Shown in pieces: positions 4,958 through 14,516 of a stretch of 38,311 nt of DNA. Location: positions 1 through 38,311 of the forward strand of contig JAHRVQ010000076.1 in assembly GCA_019090615.1 (NCBI GenBank), written 5' to 3'. The translations under genes and the position numbers were made by a program. This stretch comes from Pseudomonadales bacterium (GTDB lineage: Bacteria; Pseudomonadota; Gammaproteobacteria; Pseudomonadales; Azotimanducaceae). The notes under the pieces are model-generated. The model was not told where the DNA came from. It did not search any database and saw only the letters and a list, made by a program, of their open reading frames with translations. Each line of letters opens with the position of its first letter. Positions within the stretch are counted from its first letter, which is position 1.

Positions 4958-6427
4958 CTATATTTGTATTTTCTGCAGGCTGGTATTTAGGCTTCGCCAG
5001 TCTTTAGCATACTGCTGTAAACCGGCAGGGGAATGCTGGTATGGGCGGCTTAAATCGTTAAAAATGGTTCTTGCCAGCTGTTTGCAGCAATTAATAAACG
5101 CTTCGGTAGTCTGCCGGCCTTCTTTACGGTTGGAAAATGATCTAAGTAGCGTATGTACCTGTGATTCAGTTTGTTGGTAGTAGCTTCGTTCAGCCCGCTC
5201 ATGAATTTTTGCACCGGTTTCTGTACCGAAATAATAAGCGCGTCCTCGTAGTACGGTCTTTATTTCCAGCGCTGCATTAATTCCCATTTCCAACCAGCGT
5301 TTATTTGTTGACCAGTCCGCGGGCATCGAAAAAATTTCGTGATGGCGCTCTAGTATTGCCGCTTGTTTGTTGGCATAACCACCAACCAACAACACCATTT
5401 TGTCGTGGGTTTGATCCAGAAAAACTGATTCAAACTGGTCAATCACTGGTGCCCTAACACTGCCCTGTTTCAGGGTTTCTGCATTGAGTGCAAACTGATT
5501 AAGCTGTGTCCACCCAGGCGTCATTTGGTTTAACGAGAGGTAACGTTCTTTTTCCCGCTGCTCTTTTTTCATGTCCCAACACCTGGGTGAGTGTGGGTGC
5601 GGCCACTGGTCGAGCACTTCAAACTTAAAATCCGCTTCGCACCAGAAGCCGGTATACGCTATTGCCGTTGTATAGCCACAATGGTCGCAATCTTTCGCCT
5701 GTTGGTCTGACTCAAGTTTTAATCGCAAAGGCTGCCAAAACAAACCTCTTGCCAGGCCAATGGTCGCTGCCGGGGTTTTTGCACCGGATTCTATTGGTTC
5801 AATCCAGCACAGTTGGTCTGTCTTAATATCGGGCAGCAATGTGCTGGCTACATTACTATTAAGTACATTTAACCAGATGGTTTCGCGCAAGCCCTTACCG
5901 CTGATAAAGGTGTTAATTTTGCCGCCACCTCGCAAACCTGCCTTGTGTTTGCCCGAAAAACCTGGTGCATTACTGGCTTGATTAAATAACGCGATGGCAG
6001 CACAGCCACCGCAGATTGCCGTTATCTCATTCACCTCATTAAAGAAAGCATGATTATTACCCGCTGGCAGGCCAGTGAATAACTTCTGGATAGGCGTTAT
6101 GTTTTTGGCCGCTGGCGTTATTACTTGCATAAAGGGGGTTTCAGCATGGTCGAGGACGAAGCAATCATTAAAGTCTTCGACGTACCGCCAAAATTCTTCA
6201 TCTGTCAGTGGGCTAGTGGTGCGTTGCCTAAGGACAGTAGCATCTTTTGGTGTAGCAATGACCTGCACCAGGCTGATTAACAGTTGCAGCGCCGATAACT
6301 CCATATCATCTCGTGGCAACGACAGATGATAAGTCTGCTTTGAAGTGAGCAGTGTTTGTAAAGTAATTTGGTGTGGGCCGATTGATGACCGCACAGGAAT
6401 CCAGCACGAGGCTACCAAGTTTGTCAT
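4958..6427 (-). CDS. casA: Cascade large subunit Cas8e (Cse1/CasA)
   Basis: The 489-residue product is a full-length Cse1 (E. coli 502). Cas8e reads the PAM, opens the DNA and recruits Cas3. Two Cys pairs, CGGC at 139-142 and CDHC at 247-250, are placed as in the zinc-binding Cse1 proteins that have such a finger. The C-terminal third is helical, as expected for the four-helix bundle. The ATG has AAGGA six bases upstream. It is the first large gene of the Cascade operon. The stop of the 38-codon small frame lies 26 bases before its start, so both should share one message. Confidence 0.95.
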   Translation of the reverse strand: MTNLVASCWIPVRSSIGPHQITLQTLLTSKQTYHLSLPRDDMELSALQLLISLVQVIATPKDATVLRQRTTSPLTDEEFWRYVEDFNDCFVLDHAETPFMQVITPAAKNITPIQKLFTGLPAGNNHAFFNEVNEITAICGGCAAIALFNQASNAPGFSGKHKAGLRGGGKINTFISGKGLRETIWLNVLNSNVASTLLPDIKTDQLCWIEPIESGAKTPAATIGLARGLFWQPLRLKLESDQQAKDCDHCGYTTAIAYTGFWCEADFKFEVLDQWPHPHSPRCWDMKKEQREKERYLSLNQMTPGWTQLNQFALNAETLKQGSVRAPVIDQFESVFLDQTHDKMVLLVGGYANKQAAILERHHEIFSMPADWSTNKRWLEMGINAALEIKTVLRGRAYYFGTETGAKIHERAERSYYQQTESQVHTLLRSFSNRKEGRQTTEAFINCCKQLARTIFNDLSRPYQHSPAGLQQYAKDWRSLNTSLQKIQI

Positions 6428-6453: not shown

Positions 6454-6570
6454 TTAACTGGCTAAAACAACAACTAATACCACTAATAAAACCAACACCA
6501 TCAGCCCTCTGTCGTCGACTTGGTTGCAGGCTACTAATAGCTTCGACAAGCCCTCAACAATATTTTTCAT
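6454..6570 (-). CDS. Small hydrophobic protein, candidate CreT-like toxin or cas leader peptide
   Basis: This is a 38-codon frame from ATG (6570) to TAA. A strong ribosome-binding site, TAGGAG, lies five bases before the ATG. The N-terminal half is mixed (MKNIVEGLSKLLVACNQVDD). The C-terminal half is a run of Leu and Val (GLMVLVLLVVLVVVLAS), long enough for one membrane helix. Size and layout resemble small type I toxin peptides, but I recognise no family. It lies between the candidate cas promoter and cas8e, 26 bases before the cas8e start. Its ribosome-binding site is sequestered by the hairpin at 6575-6597. Translation is inferred. The alternative is a leader peptide that couples to cas8e, or no protein at all. 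Confidence 0.6.
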   Translation of the reverse strand: MKNIVEGLSKLLVACNQVDDRGLMVLVLLVVLVVVLAS

Positions 6571-6574
6571 GCAA

Positions 6575-6597
6575 GCTCCTACGATCACAATAGGAGC
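6575..6597 (-). promoter_or_regulatory. Hairpin sequestering the small ORF ribosome-binding site
   Basis: On the minus strand GCTCCTA (6597-6591) and TAGGAGC (6581-6575) form a perfect 7-bp stem around a 9-base loop. The right arm contains the AGGAG ribosome-binding site of the 38-codon frame, so the folded message should hide it. The hairpin would lie about 10 bases from the predicted 5' end of the cas8e-operon transcript. Hidden ribosome-binding sites of this kind are common on toxin messages. A protein-binding palindrome is the other possibility. Confidence 0.6.
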
Positions 6598-6613
6598 AAA
6601 GAATACCAGATGT

Positions 6614-6642
6614 ATTTTAAAATGGAAGTAGGTATTGGATAA
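6614..6642 (-). promoter_or_regulatory. Candidate promoter of the small ORF-cas8e operon
   Basis: On the minus strand TTATCC (6642-6637) and TAAAAT (6619-6614) are separated by 17 bases, with a predicted start near 6607. The -10 matches the sigma-70 consensus at five of six bases; the -35 is weak. An alternative extended -10, TGGTATTCT, ends at 6600. cas3 ends with its own terminator upstream, so the operon needs a promoter in this gap. The seed-matched site (6629-6639) lies between or over these promoter elements in either model. Confidence 0.5.
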
Positions 6643-6660
6643 TAAAGTTAACCCATCTAT
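6626..6660 (+). promoter_or_regulatory. PAM plus partial protospacer matched by the mini-CRISPR guide
   Basis: AAG at 6626-6628 is the canonical type I-E PAM on the non-target strand. It is followed at 6629-6639 by TAGGTATTGGA, identical to the first 11 bases of the mini-CRISPR guide at 6696-6706. Beyond the seed only 6 of the remaining 21 positions match, 17 of 32 in total. In type I systems such a pairing typically allows Cascade binding but not Cas3 destruction. The site covers the -35 side of the cas8e-operon promoter and nearly all of the mini-array promoter. Confidence 0.7.
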
Positions 6661-6663
6661 AAT
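6635..6663 (+). promoter_or_regulatory. Candidate promoter of the mini-CRISPR RNA
   Basis: TTGGAT (6635-6640) and a perfect TATAAT (6658-6663) are separated by 17 bases, predicting a start near 6670 inside the first diverged repeat. Such a start keeps the whole repeat stem and handle but drops the first few bases. Those are the bases that have diverged most from the main-array repeat. Confidence 0.6.
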
Positions 6664-6666
6664 TCC

Positions 6667-6756
6667 TTTATCCCCACGCCCGTGGGGATGAACCGTAGGT
6701 ATTGGAAAAAACATACTCTACAAGATATTGTTCCCCACACTCGTGGGGATGACTGG
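6667..6756 (+). CRISPR. Two-repeat diverged mini-CRISPR between cas3 and cas8e
   Basis: Two 29-bp repeat-like units (6667-6695, 6728-6756) flank exactly 32 bp (6696-6727), the I-E unit geometry. Aligned with the main-array repeat, the first matches at 24 of 29 positions. It keeps the stem ATCCCCACG/CGTGGGGAT and the complete handle ATGAACCG. The second keeps CCCCAC/GTGGGG but has a decayed 3' end (ATGACTGG), as a terminal repeat would. Orientation is plus, opposite to the main array and all cas genes. The guide matches the nearby promoter rather than looking like a random spacer, so I read it as a CreA/CreR-type regulatory unit. Confidence 0.85.
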
Positions 6757-6799
6757 TCAAAATAAATGGGTCTGTATTTTATTGACCCATTTATTTTTT
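6670..6799 (+). ncRNA. Predicted Cascade-guiding regulatory RNA (CreA/CreR-like)
   Basis: From the predicted start (about 6670) to the terminator T-run (6794-6799) this unit would give an RNA of about 130 nt: repeat stem, handle ATGAACCG, 32-nt guide, second repeat stem, terminator. Cas6e cutting at both stems would yield a normal-length crRNA. Known precedents are crRNA-like antitoxin or regulator RNAs (CreA of CreTA, first described in a haloarchaeal I-B system, and CreR RNAs) that guide Cascade to a promoter with seed-only complementarity. Expression and processing are inferred. Confidence 0.6.
6759..6797. terminator. Bidirectional intrinsic terminator between mini-CRISPR and cas3
   Basis: A 14-bp perfect stem is formed by AAAATAAATGGGTC (6759-6772) and GACCCATTTATTTT (6784-6797) around an 11-base loop. 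On the plus strand it is followed by a T-run (6794-6799) and would end the mini-CRISPR RNA. On the minus strand the stem is also followed by T-rich sequence and would end cas3, whose stop codon (6791-6793) lies inside the right arm. Confidence 0.8.
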
Positions 6800-9412
6800 G
6801 GTTAATCCCAGGCCGGCAAAGTTGTCGTAAGACAAAGAAATATCTTTCTCTCGCAACAACCAGGATGACCCAACTTTAGCCATGGCTATTTGAATCACCC
6901 CATCACTGTTTTTATCTGGTAGCCATTTTTGCCAGCTTGCGGGTACGCCAACTGTGCTCAGCAGCATCACCTCCTGCTTATCCCATTCTTCCAGCTCGTC
7001 AATTTTGTCGCCTTTGATTGTCATAGGCCCGTTATCACTCTCGCACAGCAGTAACAGGCTGAGGTTCATATCACCATCTCGTGTCATACAGGCGACATTT
7101 TCATCGGTATCTGCGGCGGGTACAGATGGCATATGAGCCAACTGCCGGGCGCAGTAATAGGTGGCCTCAGATTTGATACTGTACTCTTCATGGGATCGTT
7201 CAATGGCTGCAGGTTCACCTGGCCATGGGGCTTCGTCGTATACCCGCTCAATCCAGTCACGATATACAAAGGGGAAAGCCACGACGGGCATTTGTTCGAG
7301 TAATTTTTTAGTGCGCCATAACAATCGGCCAGAGGCGTACACCAGTTGATGCAGGCCGAAGTCTTCAGCTGTCGTTGGCACAATGATCGTAGCCTCCGGC
7401 ACCTGGGCAAACTCATCAGGCCTATTATTTCGCCTATGCCGGTGTAAGCGGCCAAAGCGCTGGAACAACAGGTCCACTGGGCAAATCTGGCTAATTAGCC
7501 AGTCAAAATCCAGATCAAGGGACTGCTCGATGACCTGTGTTGCTACAAGTATACGGCCCTGGCTGCGCGGTGCATCTTTGCCGTAGTGCTCAAGTACCTG
7601 TTGTTCGTGGTGTTGACGGTCGGCAAACACATATCGTGCATGGAAAATATCGATGGCAATATTCTGAGTCGAACAATCGAGTAATATTTGGTAAAGCTGT
7701 TGCGCATCCACCACGAGATTACAGACTATGCCAACCAGCGCGCCCTGTTGTGCAGCGGCCAGAATCTGCTCAATCAGCTGCGTATTGGGCAGGCAGTCAG
7801 CTGTAGCCAGTAACGTTGTATGGACTTCTCGCTGCGCGGGCAACTGAGATTCGTCCGCTATTTTAATGGCATGTATATTGTTGTTGTAGACTTGTGTCAG
7901 CAGCGGATAGGGGGGCAGGGTGGTATTGGGTTCAGTGCGGGGTTTTGCGCCCCAGGCACTAATCAGTTTGTTTATATGACTCGCAGGCAATGTGGCAGAC
8001 AATAAAATGGCTGAGCCGCCGGCTTGCCGTTGATGCTCTAGCACCGTTGTGAGCAGGCCATACATATAAGCGTCATAAGCATGCACCTCATCAATAATGA
8101 GCACACTTTTCTGGACCCCAAAGGCACGCACAAAGTTATGCCGGACTGGCAGCACCGAAATAAGCACCTGGTCTATTGTACAGACACCTATTTGCCCTAA
8201 GAATACTCGTTTGCGGCTTTCTCCCAACCATTGCGCGCATTGCACCTGGGCGGCCTCCTCACCCTGTACGTCGCCCTTTCTTGCAACGGCTTTAATCCGC
8301 TTAAAGTCCTGATTAAACCATGCTCTGCCATGGGCCAATACAACATTACTGCCTCGCTCATAAAGCGAGGAGGCAGCTGCCTCCAGGCGTGCAAGCATGG
8401 CATTGGCAGTTGCCTGTGTAGGTAAGGCGAAGATGATACTATCAGCCTTTTTAGCGGCTAATAGCTCACTTGCAAAGGCGAGTGCTGCCTCTGTTTTACC
8501 TGAACCTGTGGGGGCTTCTATAAGCGTTAACCCTTGCTCAGTACTGAGTTGGTGCAATACTGTCTGTACTTGCCTTGGTCGCATTTTTGGAAATAACCCA
8601 AGCATTCCCTTTGTGCCTGCTAAGCGACGATGCAGGCCAAATTTTTCTATGAGTGGTGCCGCAGTAATAAGCGTTGTTGCCCAATAACCAGCTAAGTCTT
8701 TACCGCCAGGTGTTGAATTATAGGCAAAGAAATCGTTATTCGACCCGACCCAGTCGCAAATTGAGCAGAACCCTGCGAGCATTGGTGGGCAAGCAGGTAA
8801 TTGAGTTGTCGGGTCGATGCTTGCAGGCTCAAGGAATAGATCGATTAATGTGTTGATCCACTCGAACCGGGCTTGCTGGTCCTTATTGATTACCCAGTCT
8901 TCGGCATCTGGCGCGCGCCACTCACCGCGCATTTGTAAATCGCCGTGGTGACCAGCTACAGCCCCCAGCCATGTTTGCGTATTATCAGCGTCAAAGCCAA
9001 AATGATTAGTTATTTGTTTGCGAAAAACAAGGAAACCTTGCGGGCCATGAAAGTACGTTTCCTTGTTAGCATCTTCGTCGGCATTAAATTTAGGCCATAA
9101 CCGCTGGAGTGCTTCTGGCGCTTTGAGCTGAAAGCGAATATCGAATTTACCCAGGTCATGCAATGCTATATAAAACAATAACCATGCTTTGGCTTGCGCT
9201 TCAGGAAAACCAGTCTGTGCAATAAAACTTAGTCGTAGCGCAGGTGATTGATCCCACCATTGTGACGCCACTGCCGCCACATCCAAACAATGAAAAACAA
9301 GCAGATGATGGCCTGCCGCTATATCTACGTTTTCGTCTTTCGCAGCAGGCCAGGCCTTACCCCAATAGTCAAAATAAATTTTTTGCTTTGTAATCTTTCC
9401 GCTACTACTCAT
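6791..9412 (-). CDS. cas3: CRISPR helicase-nuclease Cas3 (type I-E)
   Basis: The 873-residue product (E. coli 888) has an N-terminal HD nuclease with HHLLVFH near residue 36, LHDLGKFD (His85-Asp86, Lys88) and GHHGDLQ (155-160). The superfamily 2 helicase follows, with Walker A APTGSGKTE at about 300-308, the DEVH box at 441-444 and SATLP at 472-476. The motif VI-like QRFGRLHRHRR lies further on. Cas3 is recruited by Cascade to nick and unwind the displaced DNA strand. cas3 is followed by its own terminator and separated by 360 bp from cas8e, so it is probably a separate transcription unit. The start codon has only a distant GGGAG, about 11-15 bases upstream. Confidence 0.96.
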   Translation of the reverse strand: MSSSGKITKQKIYFDYWGKAWPAAKDENVDIAAGHHLLVFHCLDVAAVASQWWDQSPALRLSFIAQTGFPEAQAKAWLLFYIALHDLGKFDIRFQLKAPEALQRLWPKFNADEDANKETYFHGPQGFLVFRKQITNHFGFDADNTQTWLGAVAGHHGDLQMRGEWRAPDAEDWVINKDQQARFEWINTLIDLFLEPASIDPTTQLPACPPMLAGFCSICDWVGSNNDFFAYNSTPGGKDLAGYWATTLITAAPLIEKFGLHRRLAGTKGMLGLFPKMRPRQVQTVLHQLSTEQGLTLIEAPTGSGKTEAALAFASELLAAKKADSIIFALPTQATANAMLARLEAAASSLYERGSNVVLAHGRAWFNQDFKRIKAVARKGDVQGEEAAQVQCAQWLGESRKRVFLGQIGVCTIDQVLISVLPVRHNFVRAFGVQKSVLIIDEVHAYDAYMYGLLTTVLEHQRQAGGSAILLSATLPASHINKLISAWGAKPRTEPNTTLPPYPLLTQVYNNNIHAIKIADESQLPAQREVHTTLLATADCLPNTQLIEQILAAAQQGALVGIVCNLVVDAQQLYQILLDCSTQNIAIDIFHARYVFADRQHHEQQVLEHYGKDAPRSQGRILVATQVIEQSLDLDFDWLISQICPVDLLFQRFGRLHRHRRNNRPDEFAQVPEATIIVPTTAEDFGLHQLVYASGRLLWRTKKLLEQMPVVAFPFVYRDWIERVYDEAPWPGEPAAIERSHEEYSIKSEATYYCARQLAHMPSVPAADTDENVACMTRDGDMNLSLLLLCESDNGPMTIKGDKIDELEEWDKQEVMLLSTVGVPASWQKWLPDKNSDGVIQIAMAKVGSSWLLREKDISLSYDNFAGLGLTKK

Positions 9413-13813: not shown

Positions 13814-13825
13814 TTGACAAGTATC

Positions 13826-14470
13826 ATGAGCCGGCAGATTTCAGAAGCACCGCCACCAGACAGAAAACCCTCCCGAGCGGGCCGCAATAGTTGTGATTTT
13901 GTGGATGTAGATAAGGTGTTCAGGCGAATGAAACTGCAACCGGACGCCGTATTTCTGGACCTGGGATGTGGTCTGGGGGGTTATAGTTTTATTGCCGCCC
14001 GGCAACTCTGGCCACAAGGGCGCGTGCTGGCGATGGATAAATGGGCGCAAGGTATTAATTCGATTAACAATCAGCTAGAACAACAGGTAGAACGCAATAT
14101 AGCGGCATTTTGCGTTGATATCGCGAAACAAATACCACTACCCAACAACAGTGTCGATGTTTGCCTGATGGCTTTTGTGGCCCACCATCTGGTGGCTGCA
14201 AAGACCATCGACAAAGTGCTAAACCACCTCAATAGCGTTCTCCGGCCTGGCGCAAAGGTGCATTTTATTGAGTTTAAAAAAACACCACCACCGCCGGGCC
14301 CACCTTTAAGTATTCGCCTGTCAGCTAGTCAGCTCAGGCAATGGCTGCCTGAGCAACATTTCACCCTGGTTGAGACCACCGACATTGAACCGCATATTTA
14401 TATGCAAACATTCACTTACAACAAAGAATCTACCACAAATGATCTACCACAAATGATCTACAACAAATGA
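13826..14470 (+). CDS. Class I SAM-dependent methyltransferase
   Basis: The product of about 214 residues has motif I, VFLDLGCGLGGYSF, then RVLAMDKW (the acidic loop of motif II), and IPLPNNSVDVCLMAFVAHHL followed by VLRPGAKVHFIEF. This is the layout of UbiE/arsenite-methyltransferase-like class I enzymes. The substrate is unknown. I chose the ATG at 13826 with AAGGAG 12 bases upstream; a TTG at 13814 is too close to that site. The C-terminal residues after about 200 (NKESTTNDLPQMIYNK) are encoded by 14-bp tandem repeats, so the present end may be an extension. Confidence 0.85.
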   Translation: MSRQISEAPPPDRKPSRAGRNSCDFVDVDKVFRRMKLQPDAVFLDLGCGLGGYSFIAARQLWPQGRVLAMDKWAQGINSINNQLEQQVERNIAAFCVDIAKQIPLPNNSVDVCLMAFVAHHLVAAKTIDKVLNHLNSVLRPGAKVHFIEFKKTPPPPGPPLSIRLSASQLRQWLPEQHFTLVETTDIEPHIYMQTFTYNKESTTNDLPQMIYNK

Positions 14471-14483
14471 TCTACAACAAATA
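14428..14483 (+). repeat. Four tandem copies of a 14-bp unit at the methyltransferase 3' end
   Basis: The unit ATCTACCACAAATG repeats at 14428, 14442, 14456 and 14470; the last two copies read ATCTACAACAAATG/A. Since 14 is not a multiple of three, each copy shifts the frame, and the TGA stop arises across copies three and four (14468-14470). Copy-number change would alter the C-terminus. Confidence 0.9.
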
Positions 14484-14516
14484 ATCCTGCGACTAATGTT
14501 TGCAATCCGTTAAATT

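Follow-up and report, generated by a model that had tools for sequence, protein, structure and literature searches.

Autorepression of cas genes by CreR RNAs has been described for CRISPR-Cas subtypes I-B, I-E, and V-A (PMC13131331, citing Liu 2023), and the cited passages of two further papers report that this repression is relieved when free Cascade is depleted by array crRNAs or anti-CRISPRs (PMC12737573, PMC12948488). For CreA, mutation has established a seed consisting of positions 1 to 5 and 7 to 11 (PMC8501985). Binding of Escherichia coli Cascade is known to need little: an AAG protospacer-adjacent motif (PAM) and as few as 5 bp of seed are enough. For interference, however, an extended R-loop is required; each sixth base in the R-loop is flipped out (PMC5904413). 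Type I-E is thus among the subtypes in which CreR has been published, and the mini-CRISPR described here would belong to a known kind of system. We report its anatomy, its occurrence across type I-E loci (including that of E. coli K-12), and its association with a small membrane peptide.

RESULTS

A one-guide mini-CRISPR in the cas3-cas8e gap

The window, by which we mean the whole stretch of DNA that was analysed, is one complete contig of 38,311 bases from a 4.88-Mb draft genome (92 contigs). On the minus strand, its left end carries all the genes of a type I-E system, in the order cas3, cas8e, cas11, cas7e, cas5e, cas6e, cas1, cas2, and then the array; NCBIfam identified each of the eight cas genes. 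Four repeats of the main array are visible at positions 1 to 212, also on the minus strand, before the contig ends. The presumed controlled operon, cas8e-cas11-cas7e-cas5e-cas6e-cas1-cas2, is separated from cas3 by a gap of 363 bp (60% AT). Elsewhere in the window, the cas1/cas6e gap (1536 to 1890, 355 bp) has no listed open reading frame (ORF) of at least 90 aa, and a run of 14-bp direct repeats (TACAACAAATGATC-like) occupies 14417 to 14486, at the end of ORF 13814-14470.

Table 1. Coordinates of the cas3-cas8e gap features in the window, with their E. coli K-12 counterpart
Feature	Position	Strand	Basis or remark
PAM AAG	6626-6628	+	Overlaps predicted -35 box of the minus-strand cas8e-operon promoter
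Target (protospacer)	6629-6660	+	Guide positions 1-11 match, 17/32 in all
Mini-CRISPR repeat 1	6667-6695	+	24/29 identical to array repeat; 6-bp stem
Guide, spacer-like, 32 nt	6696-6727	+	Sequence
Mini-CRISPR repeat 2	6728-6756	+	23/29 identical to array repeat; stem intact
Terminator-like hairpin with T run	6758-6799	+	Sequence and RNA fold; overlaps cas3 end
Mini-array promoter (predicted)	6635-6663	+	-35 TTGGAT/TGGATA, -10 TATAAT at 6658-6663; 10/12 consensus bases
Peptide-cas8e operon promoter (predicted)	6600-6627	minus	-35 TTCCAT from 6627, 16 bp, extended -10 TG-n-TATTCT at 6605-6600
38-aa single-span membrane peptide ORF (MKNIVEGLSKLLVACNQVDDRGLMVLVLLVVLVVVLAS)	6454-6570	minus	GGAG ribosome-binding site; ends 26 nt before cas8e start codon
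cas8e (casA/cse1)	4958-6427	minus	NCBIfam; first cas gene of the presumed controlled operon
cas3	6791-9412	minus	NCBIfam; upstream of the gap
E. coli mini-array and AAG seed target	L077 9357-9542, equal to NC_000913.3 about 2,884,356-2,884,541		

The first-pass annotation had described two diverged I-E repeats around exactly 32 bp, with the first 11 bases of that guide recurring at 6629 to 6639 directly after AAG and 17/32 positions matching overall. Our recount gave the same values, and the coordinates of repeats, guide, PAM, and target proved correct (Table 1). Repeat 1 provides a perfect 5' handle for the guide, ATGAACCG; the handle of repeat 2 is degenerate, ATGACTGG, as is expected because no further guide follows. 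The mini-array is on the plus strand, divergent from cas8e, and the segment from 6669 to 6802 has an RNA fold z-score of -5.5. The terminator-like hairpin is predicted to close the mini-array transcript; it was not among the hairpins listed by a simple terminator scan of the window. As in CreR, a single guide with repeat-like flanks lies near cas genes.

Past position 11, guide and target match at 6/21 positions, which is near background, and the 12-base guide prefix has no copy within the window besides the guide itself. Both AAGTAGGTATTGGA and AAGTAGGTNTTGGA occur in one copy each in the whole genome, and both copies are here. The 14-mer formed by AAG and the seed (6626 to 6639) is single copy in the genome, and it is unique also when position 6 is left free. 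For AAG plus 11 exact bases, the chance expectation over both strands of the 363-bp gap is 2.7e-6. We also considered tandem duplication as a source of the match. It was rejected because the edge of the match falls exactly at the 5' end of the guide and at the PAM, and because the triplet in front of the guide is CCG and not AAG.

Survey of type I-E loci

Loci were collected by a Pfam Cse1 search (matches in 31/369 genomes of the class and 34/390 of the order), by a protein search in relatives (3/58), the window's genome being included in each of these counts, and by a Cas7e alignment scan of 84,980 species genomes, from which 102 relatives were confirmed and the best 80 of 102 were kept; E. 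coli K-12 was added. These 154 sources, 16 of them without a usable cas8e start, gave 138 regions, of which 119 were distinct. In 58 regions, cas3 and cas8e were apparently separated by 120 bp or more (some apparent gaps being merely the end of the Cas3 alignment); 55 were gapless, and cas3 was unseen in 6. Under our strict rule, a pair needed three elements: a stem and handle resembling those of a repeat, a guide, and an AAG site in the same gap that matched guide positions 1 to 5, 7, and 8 plus at least 3/8 further positions.

Strict pairs were found in 30/64 gapped or cas3-unseen loci versus 1/55 gapless loci, in which 480 bp were scanned (Fisher 2.7e-9, for loci that are related and not independent). 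When guides were swapped onto the gaps of other loci, 41/12,800 draws (0.3%) gave a pair. Set against this null and the expectation of 2.7e-6, similarity arising by chance in an AT-rich intergenic region is an explanation to which we give almost no credence, although the gap is indeed 60% AT; the view of the first-pass annotation that the match is not a product of chance agrees with both figures.

A looser rule, which did not require the stem and allowed further PAMs, gave pairs in 10/34 remaining loci and again in 1/55 gapless ones. We judged the pairs in L008 (AAA), L009, L013, L035, L048, L119, L145, and L148 to be good and those in L046 and L059 to be spurious. Neither rule yielded a pair in 24/64 loci, including L108, L115, L157, and L158. 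L072 and L046 have a good repeat and handle in the gap and no convincing AAG target, which has perhaps been lost or has moved. L025, whose cas8e start was not found and which stands outside the counts, has a pair with AAT, and in L057 the mini-array is co-oriented with cas8e, unlike in the other 25 nonredundant pairs. Upstream of cas3 in gapless loci, 2/39 had a pair, a good one in L132 and a weak one in L142. The L132 pair, in a gapless Geobacter locus, is located ~180 to 260 bp upstream of the cas3 start near 1340, where the operon promoter would be. Annotated plasmid I-E loci had no cas3-cas8e gap or had another gene order, and so they do not bear on the arrangement; further records carried no annotated feature there.

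Guide-target covariation and mismatch pattern

The first-pass annotation had proposed to ask whether guide and target covary in related loci with PAM and seed kept, and this was what we observed. The closest relatives are the Porticoccaceae metagenome-assembled genomes L083 and L085, with Cas8e proteins 71% and 68% identical over the best N-terminal segment. Guide and target both read TAGGTATTGGA in the window; in L083 the guide is TATGTATTGGT and the target AAG-TATGTATTGGT, and in L085 the guide is TAGGTATTGAG and the target AAG-TAGGTgTTGAG. Among the three loci, positions 3, 10, and 11 changed in guide and target alike, and the sole seed mismatch is at position 6. Position 11 changed jointly in guide and target of the Xenorhabdus pair L160/L161, and the guides of the Ectothiorhodospira pair L099/L101 differ, within positions 1 to 12, at position 6 only. 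Guide-target complementarity is kept across relatives, a property that we added to the comparison with CreR and that apparently lies outside its published definition.

For counts by position, we used 26 pairs, L133, L016, L101, and L161 having been dropped as near-duplicates. Positions 1 to 5, 7, and 8 prove nothing here because the search rule required them, and positions 9 to 11 and 13 to 17 were partly scored by the rule; the bias-free positions are 6, 12, and 18 onward only. Position 6 matched in 6 pairs and position 12 in 5, versus 6.5 expected by chance. Matches numbered 22, 24, 25, and 23 at positions 9, 10, 11, and 13, respectively, then 17, 17, 15, and 14 at positions 14 to 17 and 9 at position 18, with 28% matching over positions 19 to 32. 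The free positions 6 and 12 fit the Cascade R-loop. The above-chance match at position 6 that the cited passages report for off-target sites (PMC5904413) was not seen in the 26 pairs.

These data bear on whether the guide could be an accidental self-targeting spacer that is now decaying. The chromosome can be a source of spacers, and the match past position 11 is near background; however, unrelated guides in many genera keep seed and PAM, with matched changes in guide and target, and over 26 loci positions 6 and 12 drift freely while 9 to 11 and 13 are kept, which random decay would not have spared. We therefore regard such an origin as highly improbable. The comparison supports an autorepressive role for the mini-CRISPR.

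Predicted promoters at the target

The first-pass annotation had placed the site over a candidate cas8e-operon promoter. By consensus and comparison this placement stands, and it is refined to two predicted promoters lying back to back (Table 1). As in CreR, the guide has limited complementarity, beside a PAM, to a cas promoter, which here is known by consensus and comparison. The window's operon promoter is a weak consensus match (6/12 plus the extended -10) whose position is suggested by 23 loci, and its -10 box ends ~30 nt before the peptide start codon. In these 23 loci of common orientation, a minus-strand promoter was scored at 70 offsets from the target, a test that was done after the pattern had already been noticed in the same loci. 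At the top offset, the -35 box starts with two bases complementary to the AA of the PAM; scored without these two PAM-supplied bases, that offset had a mean of 5.26 versus 3.72 (standard deviation [SD], 0.61) over offsets. Offsets 11 to 15 were also high, at 4.6 to 4.9. Since the best of 70 offsets falls at the PAM, the PAM probably sits within the -35 box of the cas8e operon.

The predicted mini-array promoter is almost wholly within the protospacer and precedes repeat 1; its -10 box is TACAAT/TATAAT in L083/L085. In 10/23 loci, a mini-array promoter site scoring at least 9 (extended -10 counted) overlapped the protospacer, a count that has no null. The 23 loci gave no support for a constant spacing between mini-array promoter and repeat (best 5.22 versus a mean of 4.56; SD, 0.35; distances scattered), and the claim that the target covers the mini-array promoter therefore derives from single loci.

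A membrane peptide ahead of cas8e

Between the target and cas8e, the window has a small ORF that the first-pass annotation guessed to be under the same control. That guess fits our data: the peptide (6454 to 6570, minus strand) is conserved in relatives. A longer, 86-aa ORF (6454 to 6714) had no NCBIfam match; of its residues, only the C-terminal 38 could be aligned to relatives. By a rule that called for a hydrophobic span, a length of 25 to 60 aa, and an end within 140 nt of cas8e, the peptide was present in 16/30 strict-pair loci, 2/34 others, and 0/55 gapless loci (Fisher 4.4e-5 for the link of peptide and pair, kinship uncorrected); such an ORF occurred in 29/3,050 resampled gaps. The two loci with a peptide and no strict pair, L119 and L145, both have a looser-rule pair. 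Two further loci missed the peptide rule: L041, a pair locus, by a small margin, and L039, for which neither pair rule gives a pair. The similar peptide of L039 speaks against a strict peptide-guide link.

Peptide-bearing loci are the window, L083, L085, L003, L004, L039, L040, L041, L096, L119, L120, L131, L145 to L147, L150, L155, L160, and L161. Cut to their likely starts, the 19 aligned peptides are 33 to 44 aa long and share no invariant column; a short N-terminal part, often ending in N-x-x-(S/T)-P or similar, is followed by one hydrophobic span. Four pairs gave pS/pN values of 1.01/0.27, 0.76/0.24, 0.85/0.33, and 0.58/0.15, the highest pS being saturated, with pS of 0.76 to 1.01 versus pN of 0.24 to 0.33 among the window, L083, and L085. 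The excess of pS over pN indicates that the peptide is translated and under purifying selection. Searches of Pfam, NCBIfam, and PADLOC gave no family match (best E, 0.02), and a full-text literature search gave no paper on such a peptide among the matches listed, judging by titles and the opening of abstracts. PMC12231136 mentions small membrane proteins next to I-E variants of Streptomyces that lack cas3.

The peptide invites a different reading, a CreTA- or CrePA-like addiction or alarm in which the guide serves mainly to restrain the membrane peptide, a toxin freed when Cascade fails or is blocked, and repression of cas8e is a by-product of the shared promoter. Its ORF does lie directly behind the target, it is found in pair loci at the frequencies given above, and its 33 to 44 aa, single hydrophobic span, and purifying selection would suit such a role. 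However, 14/30 guide-target loci have no peptide by our rule (L041 being a near miss), L039 has a similar peptide and no pair, and the peptide matches no toxin family. Moreover, the peptide shares the orientation of cas8e and lies no more than about 100 nt from it, so that production of Cascade would always bring production of the peptide. We consider this reading unlikely and prefer a guide gene that regulates cas expression.

The E. coli K-12 locus

In the MG1655 casA-cas3 gap, we found a degenerate repeat at 2,884,481 with the handle ATAAACCG and a guide beginning TTATTGGTCTTATTATCG, and AAG-TTATTcGTtTTATTAT ~125 bp from the repeat, near 2,884,356. None of the shuffled K-12 guides scored as well as the real one (0/300). 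The gap was matched by 1,126/5,426 E. coli genomes, in 1,106 over at least 80% of its length. Six E. coli alleles (97.4 to 100% identity) are invariant in PAM, target positions 1 to 16, repeat 1, and guide positions 1 to 11, and their guide varies at positions 12 and 28. This conservation lends the guide-target pair weak support, because 19/431 columns vary in all and a gene marked as a pseudogene lies beside three of the six alleles (casA for L078 and L079, cas3 for L080).

A divergent promoter in this gap, anti-Pcas, is given in the cited passages as having an unknown role, perhaps that of hindering cas3 termination or translation (PMC10011333); we infer that anti-Pcas drives the K-12 guide. 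The strains used for Cascade chromatin immunoprecipitation sequencing (ChIP-seq) had cas3 deleted and the cse1 promoter replaced (PMC5904413). Strains of this type have probably lost the guide or its target, and so the K-12 site was probably not shown. In L077, a GTG-start frame (NVIIELITPYFFFVFTDNG...) overlaps the casA start; it begins NVIIELITP, first residues that resemble the peptide family, and it is possibly a remnant of the membrane peptide.

DISCUSSION

We put the probability at roughly 0.9 that the mini-CRISPR is a CreR-type guide gene regulating cas expression and that Cascade represses its own operon by seed-only pairing. The defence complex would then probably switch itself down. 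Transcription, processing, binding, repression, and sensing could proceed as follows. A plus-strand transcript would start near 6670, and Cas6e would cut at both repeat stems, leaving one crRNA-like RNA to be loaded into Cascade. The complex would be led to 6626 to 6660 by AAG and positions 1 to 5 and 7 to 11 only, which would place Cas8e over the -35 region of the promoter of the cas8e operon, with the mini-array's own promoter covered by the complex as well. The effector genes, the small membrane peptide ahead of them, and the guide would all be repressed. No self-cleavage would be expected at the target: a match of 11 positions would not sustain the extended R-loop needed to recruit Cas3. 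Array crRNAs or anti-CRISPRs that draw Cascade away would lift the repression.

A more speculative extension, which we put forward tentatively and would sooner doubt than assert, is as follows. Besides cas genes, the CreR switch of E. coli-type I-E systems would also keep in check the conserved single-span membrane peptide encoded at the head of the cas8e operon. When Cascade is lost or inhibited, new Cascade would be made in a burst, and an alarm or effector acting on the membrane would be released with it. A K-12 guide under anti-Pcas would be the purpose of that promoter.

Judged by sequence alone, seed-only Cascade self-repression would be widespread among type I-E loci in which the effector operon is served by a promoter of its own, K-12 included. 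K-12 is a laboratory model in which self-repression is directly testable; the replaced cse1 promoter and deleted cas3 of strains such as those of PMC5904413 would hide it, guide or target probably being lost. We regard the linked membrane peptide as a candidate part of type I-E systems; the literature and family databases searched gave no description of it. What may be new here is the breadth of the arrangement at the cas3-cas8e gap, the fit of PAM and -35 box, the K-12 case, and the peptide.

Among described systems, autorepression of Cas9 by tracr-L (type II-A) shares a short, 11-nt guide match with a PAM at a cas promoter and apparently prevented cleavage; unlike the window's mini-CRISPR, it has a single-protein effector, takes the form of a tracrRNA, and involves no mini-array (PMC8616872). 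In CrePA (Shu 2025), as would be the case in the window, Cascade is guided to repress a gene that encodes a protein, and anti-CRISPRs relieve the repression (PMC12737573). CreP is a toxic protein, whereas the window's peptide is at most a candidate toxin. CreA of CreTA (Haloarcula hispanica, Halobacterium hubeiense) likewise derives from a degenerate mini-array, uses a PAM and a seed of positions 1 to 5 plus 7 to 11, and guides Cascade in repressing a nearby promoter, that of its own pair included (PMC8501985, PMC9458426, in the passages cited). The position pattern of our 26 pairs equals this seed. In contrast, CreA silences a toxic RNA, and the client in the window would be a type I-E cas8e operon fronted by a membrane peptide, with an AAG PAM. 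The K-12 casA-cas3 gap also has a degenerate repeat, a guide, and an AAG target, in the same gap and orientation as in the window and with other letters; the promoters there are also silenced by H-NS. With CreR, as the cited passages describe it, the window shares a mini-CRISPR guide with limited complementarity to a cas promoter, in one of the subtypes, I-E, for which CreR is named (PMC13131331, PMC12737573, PMC12948488).
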